Assembly: GCF_000622245.1 (NCBI RefSeq)
Contig: NZ_JHXW01000006.1
Span: 1 to 64,000 of the forward strand
DNA from: Fusobacterium perfoetens ATCC 29250
GTDB lineage: Bacteria > Fusobacteriota > Fusobacteriia > Fusobacteriales > Fusobacteriaceae
Reading direction: 5' to 3'
Length of the DNA stretch: 64,000 bases
A program made the translations under genes and the position numbers. Position 1 is the first letter of the stretch; every line of letters starts with the position of its first letter. Positions 9,092 through 12,579 of the stretch are shown here, piece after piece. Under the pieces are notes generated by a model, which was not told the DNA's origin, made no database searches, and saw only the letters and a program-made list of their open reading frames with translations.

Positions 9092-9120
9092 TTGATACTT
9101 ATATTCATTTGTGATAAAAT
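9092..9120 (+). promoter_or_regulatory. Promoter of the accB-nusB operon
   Basis: TTGATA (9092-9097), a 17-nt spacer and TAAAAT (9115-9120). It lies directly after dnaE and 37 bases before the accB start codon. It overlaps an in-frame upstream extension of accB, which argues against a start at 9092. Confidence 0.8.
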
Positions 9121-9157
9121 AATGAGAGATTTTATTTTAAAATTTATAGGAGGAGTC

Positions 9158-9577
9158 GTGGAAAAAGACAATATTTTAATTGATAATCTAATTGATATAT
9201 TGAATAAAAATGAATTATCAGAAATAGATTTTCAAGATAAAGATTTAAAAATAAAAGTAAAAAAAGATATTATTGTTGAAGAAATTGTTGAACAAGAAGA
9301 AATAATTGAAGAATTTTCTAAAGAAGATGATGATTTTATTTATATAAAATCAAATAATATTGGAAAATTCTTCTTCTATGATAAAACAGGTGTTCCTTTA
9401 ATTTCTGTTGGTCAAAATATAAAAATAGGTCAAACTATTGGATTTGTATCTACTGTGGGAATTAAAACTCCTATAAAATCAGAAGTTGCTGGTTATGTTG
9501 AACAAATACTTCTTAAAAATGGTGAAATAACTGATTATGGAAAAAATCTAATAAAATTAAAAAAAGTTCTTGATTAA
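9158..9577 (+). CDS. accB: Biotin carboxyl carrier-like protein lacking the canonical biotinyl-lysine motif
   Basis: AccB carries biotin between the carboxylase and transferase of acetyl-CoA carboxylase. The product (139 aa from the GTG at 9158, preceded by AGGAGG) has the usual short N-terminal segment (LIDNLIDILNKNELSEI), an acidic linker and a biotinyl/lipoyl-type barrel with VGQNIKIGQTIGFV and SEVAGYVEQILLKNGEITDYG. Where other AccB proteins read EAMKM, this one reads STVGIKTPI. The modified Lys aligns with Gly101, and the nearest Lys (103) is not in a Met-Lys-Met turn. The gene is first in an operon with accC. Either carboxylation uses a different carrier, or another Lys is modified, or this is a non-catalytic scaffold. 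Confidence 0.75.
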   Translation: MEKDNILIDNLIDILNKNELSEIDFQDKDLKIKVKKDIIVEEIVEQEEIIEEFSKEDDDFIYIKSNNIGKFFFYDKTGVPLISVGQNIKIGQTIGFVSTVGIKTPIKSEVAGYVEQILLKNGEITDYGKNLIKLKKVLD

Positions 9578-9606: not shown

Positions 9607-10947
9607 TTGAAAAAATTACTTATTGCTAATAGAGGGGAAATTGCTGTTAGAATTATAAGGGCTGCTAAAGAATTAGGAATTAAAACAGTTGCTGTTTATT
9701 CAGAAGCTGATAAAAATAGTCTTCATGTAAAAATGGCTGATGAAGCTGTATGTATTGGACCAGCTCCAGCTATTGATTCTTACTTAAAAATACCTAATAT
9801 TATAGCAGCTGCTGAAATAACGGGAGCTGATGCTATACATCCTGGTTATGGATTTTTAGCTGAAAACTATAGATTTGCAAAAATTTGTAGAATACATAAT
9901 CTTATTTATGTAGGACCTAACCATGAATGTATAAAACAAATGGGAGATAAAGCTACAGCTAGACAAAAAGCTATTGAAAATAATGTTCCTGTAACTAATG
10001 GTACTGGAATTATAACTGATATCGAAGCAGCTAAAAAAGAAATTCATGAAAGAATAGGATATCCTGTAATGATAAAAGCCACTGCTGGTGGTGGTGGTAA
10101 AGGAATGAGAATAGCTAGAAATGATAAAGAACTTGAAAAAAATATTGTCGCTGCTCAAAATGAAGCTGAAGCTGCTTTTAATAATCCAGATGTTTTTGTA
10201 GAAAAATATATTGAAAATCCAAAACATATTGAAATTCAAGTTGTTGGAGATAAACATGGAAATATAATTCATCTTGGAGAAAGAAACTGTTCTATTCAAA
10301 GAAGAAACCAAAAACTTATAGAAGAATCTCCATCTTTCAGACTTCCTGAAAAAGTTAGAAAAGCTATGGGAGAAGCTGCTGTAAGATTAGCTAAGTCTAT
10401 TGAATATGATTCAGCTGGTACATTAGAATTCCTTGTTGATGACCAAAATAATTTTTATTTTATGGAAATGAACACAAGAATTCAAGTAGAACATACTGTT
10501 ACTGAAGCTGTTACTGGTTTAGACATAATAAAATTACAAATAAGTTTAGCTGAAGGAGATAGATTAAATATATCTCAAGAAGATATTATTCCTTATGGAC
10601 ATGCTATTGAATGTAGAATAAATGCTGAAGATACTGAGAATGGTTTCATTCCTTGTCCCGGAGTTATAACTAAATATGTTGTTCCTGGAGGAATTGGTAT
10701 AAGAGTTGATTCTCATTCTTATCAAGGGTACGAAATTTCTCCTTACTATGATTCTATGATAGGAAAGCTTATTACTTTTGGTATGGACAGAGATGAAGCA
10801 ATAGCTAGAATGGAAAGAGCTCTTAAAGAATTTGTTATTGAAGGAGTTGAAACAACTATTCCATTCCATTTAAAAGTTTTAAAAAATGAAAACTATTTAA
10901 AAGGAAATATAACTACTGCATTTATTGAAAAGGAATTTGGTTTATAA
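9607..10947 (+). CDS. accC: Biotin carboxylase subunit of acetyl-CoA carboxylase
   Basis: AccC uses ATP and bicarbonate to carboxylate biotin on its carrier protein. The 446-residue protein has the biotin carboxylase N-domain ([16 protein letters not shown]), the ATP-grasp glycine loop [12 protein letters not shown], the motif CSIQRRNQK, the catalytic [18 protein letters not shown] and a C-terminal domain. It is full length (E. coli 449). The start is TTG, with GGAGG 7 nt upstream. It directly follows accB, 29 bases away. The enzyme itself looks intact, in contrast to the odd carrier. The order accB-accC-asp23-nusB resembles that of Bacillus. Confidence 0.95.
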
Positions 10948-10994: not shown

Positions 10995-11378
10995 ATGAGT
11001 AACTTAGGAAATATAAAAATTGCTGATGACGTTGTAAAAACTATAGCAGCAAAAGCTACAGAAGATGTTGAAGGTGTATATAGATTAGCTGGTGGAGTAG
11101 CTGATGAGTTTGGTAAAATTCTTGGTAAAAAAAGAGGAGTTAATGGGATTAAAGTAGAAGTTGGAGAAAAAGAATGTAGTATAGATACTTTCATCATCAT
11201 TAAACATGGATATCCTATATCTGAAGTTGCTAAAAAAGTTCAAGAATCTGTTTTAGAATCTGTTTCTCGTTTAACTGCTTTAAAAGTTATTGAAGTTAAT
11301 GTTTTCGTACAAGATATTAAAATTGAAGATGACAAAAATGCTAAAGAAGAAAATGAAACAGCTGGAGAAATAGAATAA
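10995..11378 (+). CDS. Asp23/Gls24 family protein (YqhY-like)
   Basis: A 127-residue Asp23/Gls24 (DUF322) protein: GNIKIADDVVKTIAAKA, the DVEGVYRLAGG turn, a middle block VNGIKVEVGEKECSID and HGYPISEVAKKVQESV near the end. The family is best known as alkaline-shock proteins in Firmicutes. In Bacillus the acc-linked paralogue YqhY affects acetyl-CoA carboxylase activity. Here it lies in the accBC operon and is followed by a matching membrane anchor, so it probably sits at the membrane next to lipid synthesis. The start has AAGGAGG 7 nt upstream. Confidence 0.85.
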   Translation: MSNLGNIKIADDVVKTIAAKATEDVEGVYRLAGGVADEFGKILGKKRGVNGIKVEVGEKECSIDTFIIIKHGYPISEVAKKVQESVLESVSRLTALKVIEVNVFVQDIKIEDDKNAKEENETAGEIE

Positions 11379-11398: not shown

Positions 11399-11905
11399 AT
11401 GATAAAAAATATTATATTTTTCTTTGCATGGATTGGAATATTCTTATTATCTATGTTTGGAATTATTTACATAGTAAGTCCTGAATTTTTAGTATCATTT
11501 AATATAAATACTCTTATTGGAAATACTTTTATTTTAACTATTTCTATAGTTTACTTTATTATTTCTTTATTTAGATTTATCACTCTTTTCTCACGAACTA
11601 AAGGCTACTCTATTACAAGTTCTCATGGAGAAGTATTAGTATCTACAGAATCTATTAAAAGTATAATCAAAGAAACTTTAGAAGATGATACTGAAATTAA
11701 AAATCTTAAAATTTCTTGTGGTAAAAAAGGTAGACATTATAAAGTAACTCTTTTTATAGATATGAATACTCAAAGAAGTATTGCTGAAAAAAGTTCTGAA
11801 ATTCAACAAAAAGTTAAAGATGAATTATTTAGAAGATTAGAACTTGAAATTCAAATAGTAGAAATTAAAATTTCTAAAGTTTCTATAAAAAATCAAAGTA
11901 ATTAA
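11399..11905 (+). CDS. amaP: AmaP-like alkaline shock membrane anchor protein
   Basis: AmaP anchors Asp23 to the membrane. This 168-residue protein has two N-terminal membrane segments (about residues 3-26 and 40-63). The cytoplasmic domain (residues 70-160) is Asp23-like in its strand pattern: SSHGEVLVSTESIKSIIKETL, NLKISCGKKGRHYKVTLFIDM, EIQQKVKDELFRRL. Start follows AAAAGGACG. It lies 20 bases after asp23 and before a DUF2273 membrane protein, the usual trio in Firmicutes, which supports a physical complex with the acc-linked Asp23 protein. Confidence 0.75.
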   Translation: MIKNIIFFFAWIGIFLLSMFGIIYIVSPEFLVSFNINTLIGNTFILTISIVYFIISLFRFITLFSRTKGYSITSSHGEVLVSTESIKSIIKETLEDDTEIKNLKISCGKKGRHYKVTLFIDMNTQRSIAEKSSEIQQKVKDELFRRLELEIQIVEIKISKVSIKNQSN

Positions 11906-11931: not shown

Positions 11932-12162
11932 ATGCTTGAAGAATTTATATATTCTTTAATAGAAAATAGAAAGAAAATATTTTGGGGAGCAGTATTTTTT
12001 GTAATCTCCATATTATTTATTGCTTTCGGTTTATTCTCTACAATTTTTATTGTTGTAATGACTATTATTGGATATCACTTTGGAGATATGGATAATAAAA
12101 ATATAATAGTAAAACTAAAAAATATGCTAACAAATTTACTTAACAAAATAGATACAAATTAA
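11932..12162 (+). CDS. DUF2273-like small membrane protein
   Basis: A 76-residue protein with two close hydrophobic segments (about 17-37 and 37-57) forming a hairpin, ending in an amphipathic tail (VKLKNMLTNLLNKID). The pattern KKIFWGAVFFVISILFI, then FGLF and VVMTIIGYHFG, fits DUF2273 proteins found beside Asp23 and AmaP. The biochemical role is unknown. The Shine-Dalgarno is GGGGTGA. It lies 26 bases after amaP and 15 before nusB. Confidence 0.7.
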   Translation: MLEEFIYSLIENRKKIFWGAVFFVISILFIAFGLFSTIFIVVMTIIGYHFGDMDNKNIIVKLKNMLTNLLNKIDTN

Positions 12163-12177
12163 TATAAAGGGGTAAAA

Positions 12178-12579
12178 ATGACTAGAAAAGCTGCTAGAGA
12201 GCAATTATTCAAATTAATATTTGAAGCAGAATTAAAAGAAACTTCTTTAAATGAAATTTTTAATTCTTTTTTAAAAAGAGTTTCTGAAGAAGAAATAGAA
12301 ATTAGTGAAGAATCTTTAAATTTTATAAAAAAATATGCTTTAGGTATTTCTGAACATTCTGATGAAATACTTAAAAAAATTGAAAATACTATGGAAGGTT
12401 GGAGTTTTGAAAGAATAGGAAACATTGAAAAGGCTCTTTTAAAAGGTGCTGTATATGAACTTTCTTATGAAAATACTCCTAAAGAAATAGTTATAAATGA
12501 AACTGTTGAACTTGCTAAAAAATATGGAGACACTAAATCTTCTGAATTTTTAAATGGTGTATTAGCAAAATTTGTATAA
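12178..12579 (+). CDS. nusB: Transcription antitermination factor NusB
   Basis: NusB, with NusE (S10), binds boxA RNA to make RNA polymerase resistant to termination on rRNA operons. The 133-residue helical protein has the family's opening TRKAAREQLFKLIFEAE, the central helix region GWSFERIGNIEKALLKGAVYEL and the conserved PKEIVINETVELAKKYG...FLNGVLAKF close. It is full length. It is the last gene of the acc operon, before a strong terminator. NusA is encoded at 45630. Confidence 0.95.
   Translation: MTRKAAREQLFKLIFEAELKETSLNEIFNSFLKRVSEEEIEISEESLNFIKKYALGISEHSDEILKKIENTMEGWSFERIGNIEKALLKGAVYELSYENTPKEIVINETVELAKKYGDTKSSEFLNGVLAKFV

Follow-up and report, generated by a model that had tools for sequence, protein, structure and literature searches.

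The window analysed here is a 64,000-nucleotide stretch of Fusobacterium perfoetens ATCC 29250 (contig NZ_JHXW01000006.1), in which a short gene related to accB lies directly upstream of accC, the biotin carboxylase gene of acetyl-CoA carboxylase (ACC), the drug-targeted enzyme through which carbon is committed to fatty acids. The genes and features of the locus are as follows.

9148..9154, + strand: strong ribosome-binding site, AGGAGGA, just 5' of the GTG start (direct reading of the sequence)
9158..9577, + strand: Lys-free AccB/BCCP homologue, 139 aa, GTG start (open reading frame, profile matches, phylum comparison)
9170..9265, + strand: AccB-like N-terminal helix and beta-hairpin, residues 5-36 (E. 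coli AccB alignment, predicted structure)
9266..9331, + strand: variable acidic linker, residues 37-58 (predicted structure, conservation)
9335..9562, + strand: biotinyl-type barrel, residues 60-135 (predicted structure, Foldseek)
9449..9463, + strand: STVGI turn where EAMKM is expected, with the Gly codon at 9458-9460 (alignment with the genome's own AccB)
9607..10947, + strand: accC, biotin carboxylase, 446 aa, the genome's only Biotin_carb_C match (profile searches, alignment)
10995..11378, + strand: Asp23-family (YqhY-type) gene (PF03780, 102.2 bits)
11399..11905, + strand: membrane protein, presumably AmaP-like, with a weak Asp23 match (PF03780, 26.3 bits, under the cut-off of 28)
11932..12162, + strand: DUF2273 small membrane protein (PF10031)
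12178..12579, + strand: nusB (PF01029)

The original prediction, that this gene heads the operon of an intact biotin carboxylase, is borne out by the gene that follows it, whose product scores 694.9 bits against TIGR00514 (cut-off 626.5). When AccC is aligned with the biotin carboxylase of S. aureus, its ATP-grasp and catalytic motifs are, by eye, intact, and the sequence is that of a functional enzyme. A promoter scan returned a site at 9092-9120 matching at 10 of 12 positions, but the counts equal those in shuffled sequence (24 vs 25.2).

The protein encoded at 9158-9577 is a full-length AccB/BCCP homologue with glycine at the position of the biotinyl lysine. It scores 30.9 bits against the Pfam Biotin_lipoyl profile, above the cut-off of 22.1, and 43.2 bits against the TIGR00531 BCCP profile, far under the curated cut-off of 115.2. 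When a profile of the family (22 members) was compared with solved structures, E. coli AccB was the best match (residues 22-176, E 5.8e-17); the aligned span covers almost the entire protein and places the family glycine under the biotinyl lysine of E. coli AccB. Alignment to the genome's own AccB likewise sets STVGI against EAMKM, with Gly for Lys. The protein has the N-terminal module and the biotinyl barrel of an AccB and lacks the biotinyl lysine in an E-A-M-K turn, and so by the defining feature of the AccB carrier family it stands outside that family.

The predicted structure agrees with this layout. In the model the N-terminal module comprises a helix (residues 8-17) and two strands (22-27 and 30-35), linker residues 37-57 are disordered (pLDDT <50), and the barrel is modelled with a pLDDT of about 81-90 by block, within a whole model of moderate quality (mean pLDDT 73.2; 4 rows). 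Foldseek matched the model to E. coli BCCP, structure 4hr7_G, with an rmsd of 1.1 and a TM of 0.88 by target, and to Arabidopsis BCCP1 (9a87; 0.87). Mean conservation across the Lys-free family is similar in the N-terminal module (0.505) and the barrel (0.513) and lower in the linker (0.268). The barrel is nevertheless less conserved than that of true AccB (0.690), and therefore its contacts may differ; the thumb, which is altered in the Lys-free protein and deleted in some genera, could also mean different contacts.

The original prediction had offered three options, namely that a second carrier exists, that another lysine is modified, or that the protein is a structural partner, and it called for a genome search for an MKM-containing carrier and for birA. 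The F. perfoetens genome (25 contigs, 99.97% complete) does encode a second carrier, since a separate AccB with EAMKM lies on contig 11 (L001:1279-1725) and passes the NCBI BCCP cut-off (117.7 bits vs 115.2 for TIGR00531). AccA and AccD are both present, as are two BirA-type biotin ligases and one lipoate ligase. Both BirA-type ligases are encoded on contig 2 (L040, L041), and only one of them has a DNA-binding domain. The genome further encodes an OadA-type protein (pyruvate carboxylase subunit B), a lipoyl protein and a carrier of the decarboxylase type.

In B. subtilis the corresponding operon has been described as accBC-yqhY, where loss of yqhY selects for mutations in ACC subunits, and Fusobacteria are named among the holders of this operon (PMC5437119). 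Because the gene order in the window matches that of accBC-yqhY, the Lys-free gene occupies the accB slot of an accB-accC-asp23 operon, and the working carrier is encoded elsewhere. This corrects the annotation: what stands in the accB position of the accBC-yqhY operon in Fusobacteria encodes the Lys-free protein, not the carrier. An Asp23 gene also lies 3' of accC in 17 of the 18 other loci checked, a count from which two additional loci, where accC is a second copy, were set aside.

Among 98 Fusobacteriota genomes, tblastn with the Lys-free protein matched 82, and a standalone AccC was found in 81 (83 genomes with Biotin_carb_C matches, minus G056 and G060, where the matching frames are 1155 and 874 aa long). 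In 80 of these 81 genomes accC has the Lys-free gene immediately upstream; in the remaining one (G087) the two genes each lie at contig ends. Where a standalone AccC is lacking (17 genomes), only G025 has a match, and that copy is cut by the contig end before the turn. The family of the window protein includes named Cetobacterium and Fusobacterium records. In the copies read through the turn, the residue is Gly in 81/81 genomes and Lys in 0/81, which is far more than chance would give. The comparison with relatives that the original prediction had asked for thus upholds an AccB-like barrel with Gly at the biotinyl position, and neither outcome that it had named as refuting, a local sequence error or MKM in close relatives, was found; because all 81 copies read carry Gly, the reading is no sequencing error. 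Among the 81 genomes, 37 yielded a readable canonical AccB, always with EAMK and never linked to AccC, and a true AccB with EAMK also occurs in G051 and G060, where AccC and the Lys-free gene were not found.

Several exceptions were noted within the phylum. Neither a standalone AccC nor the Lys-free protein was found in G016-G018, G064, G082, G083, G091-G096 and G001, where the absence of both genes suggests that the components of ACC may have disappeared together. Four genomes (G070, G071, G076, G078) have a second standalone AccC plus a third AccB-like match; where this third match was read, in G070 (L067), it has the Lys, and the second AccC loci L397 and L398 have no downstream Asp23 gene and no AccB-like match. 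In G028 (L046) the barrel part of the Lys-free gene is open and its N-terminal portion falls in a different frame.

It is highly improbable that the protein is a carrier after all, bearing biotin or another prosthetic group on a different lysine. The window protein does have a Lys two positions after the Gly (STVGIK), and K31 is present in 75 of the 81 copies. However, the +2 Lys is found in 37/81 copies only, none of the lysines in the barrel is invariant among the 81 Fusobacteriota copies, and the genome has its separate EAMKM AccB, so that modification of another lysine finds no support. In Chloroflexus BC1, moreover, the K553A substitution abolished biotinylation (PMC11077971).

Lys-free copies are not confined to Fusobacteriota. 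In a domain-wide sample of 193 genomes from outside the phylum, extended by follow-up searches, AccC-linked AccB was found with Lys in 88 genomes (a figure that includes the Bacteroidota locus L088, if this counts as a genome) and without Lys in 10, where the position is taken by Gly (G101, G249, G114, G261, G168, G223), Glu (G125), Asp (G164, G272) or Ser (G215). Three further genomes (G239, G219, G186) have Asn at this position, with no accC within the stretch read. In 12 of these 13 genomes there is also a copy of AccB type bearing EAMK or ESMK; in G272, whose genome is 81% complete, none was found. One of the follow-up searches matched 48 genomes, of which 30 were read, and the counts exclude weak matches in G115, G167, G180, G191, G241 and G273. 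A motif scan of genome contigs, with poor patterns, returned three loci, one of them an ordinary Bacteroidota AccB, and searching plasmids yielded 14 matches, all of them weak and part-length. The phylum of G101 was sampled more densely (61 genomes searched, 59 matching, 30 loci read, L403-L432): 22 of the 30 AccC-linked copies are without Lys, having Gly (16), Arg (3), Thr (2) or His (1) instead; several of them keep the remainder of the motif (RAMGLMNE, ESMRILNP), and most of the copies are located some 260-570 bases 5' of the AccC frame.

Loss of the lysine from AccC-linked AccB is thus either recurrent or old. In a tree built without biotin proteins of the decarboxylase type (MKME and similar motifs), the Fusobacteriota Lys-free copies form one group (98/75), and most other Lys-free copies lie nearby, on a weak branch (73/86). 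AU tests on 141 columns rejected neither a single origin of all Lys-free copies (p-AU 0.308) nor an origin inside Fusobacteriota (p-AU 0.294).

The diversity of residues that replace Lys in different lineages is what might be expected of a relic, an old operonic accB decaying after a second AccB took over, but this explanation is barely credible. The Lys-free gene is under purifying selection, like true AccB: against three congeners its dN/dS is 0.137, 0.160 and 0.237, compared with 0.153, 0.232 and 0.267 for true AccB and 0 to 0.05 for AccC. It is also retained with accC in all 81 AccC-bearing genomes, with the Gly fixed throughout, and for Fusobacteriota these selection and retention data refute decay. 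A sequencing error or pseudogene was likewise rejected, given Gly in 81/81 phylum copies and a dN/dS of 0.14-0.24.

As a lookalike of the biotin carrier that is kept beside accC but has lost the biotin lysine, the protein probably takes part in assembling or tuning ACC for fatty-acid synthesis, much like a similar protein in plant chloroplasts, and we consider it rather likely that the gene encodes a biotin-free AccB paralogue acting as a non-catalytic partner of AccC of some kind. Among the three options of the original prediction, that of a structural partner is the one best supported by inference as a role. From its chemistry, a protein without the lysine would be unable to carry CO2 or carboxybiotin, while the retained N-terminal module and barrel could dock on AccC, on the true AccB, or on both. 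Such docking might promote assembly of the AccC-AccB subcomplex, as a cap or as glue, or might compete with charged AccB and so set the activity of ACC, and expression from one operon with AccC would fix the ratio of the two proteins. The proposed mechanism is thus that of a non-catalytic subunit which is produced together with AccC and would hold or gate the AccC-AccB subcomplex.

The effect could carry either sign, assembling or inhibiting, as has been debated for the plant protein BADC. That the same partner mainly inhibits, filling the AccB docking site of AccC without biotin, is possible and on balance unlikely. Early work on plant BADC described inhibition (PMC11926652, PMC12873504), and the asp23/yqhY gene, which shares the operon, has a genetic link to ACC in B. 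subtilis (PMC5437119); strict co-retention and co-expression with AccC from one operon would nevertheless better suit a built-in subunit. A further reading, in which the protein serves as an adaptor through which the one AccC could charge a carrier other than AccB, for instance the OadA-type protein, would fit a genome with a single biotin carboxylase and several biotinyl proteins, but is very unlikely given that the Lys-free gene accompanies AccC across the whole phylum. For the preferred reading, a non-catalytic partner of AccC, a broader form can also be put forward, on which our judgement is evenly divided: biotin-free, AccC-pairing AccB paralogues may be a widespread bacterial device, arising through conversion of the operonic AccB, probably several times. 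In this device the non-catalytic subunit would assemble or tune ACC and a second AccB would carry the biotin.

Three known systems invite comparison. With the AccB/BCCP of heteromeric ACC (TIGR00531), the Lys-free protein shares the N-terminal module, the linker, the barrel and the slot beside accC and asp23; it differs in having neither the biotinyl Lys nor EAMKM, in scoring far below the family cut-off, and in that the carrier here is a second gene. YqhY/Asp23 of the accBC-yqhY operon is likewise an ACC-linked, non-catalytic protein encoded in the same operon, but it belongs to an unrelated fold family and its gene comes after accC in the window. The third system is plant BADC, which is BCCP-like, lacks a biotinylation motif, interacts with BC and BCCP, and has been described both as an inhibitor and as an assembly glue (PMC11926652, PMC12873504). 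A 2025 paper calls BADC, as non-biotinylated BCCP-like subunits, unique to the plant enzyme (PMC11926652), and a search of the open-licence literature found no bacterial BADC or Lys-free BCCP. The Lys-free protein is also BCCP-like and free of the motif, and its organism likewise has a true BCCP; unlike BADC, its gene is bacterial, operonic with accC and fixed across a phylum, and plant BADC was not among the best 60 of the 85 PDB profile matches. On present evidence, the Lys-free protein would work like plant BADC, a likeness of description. If biotin-free partners of AccC are indeed a widespread bacterial device, BADC-type control would not be unique to plants. A phylum-wide bacterial version encoded with AccC and asp23 would offer a simple system in which to test whether such proteins assemble or inhibit the enzyme.
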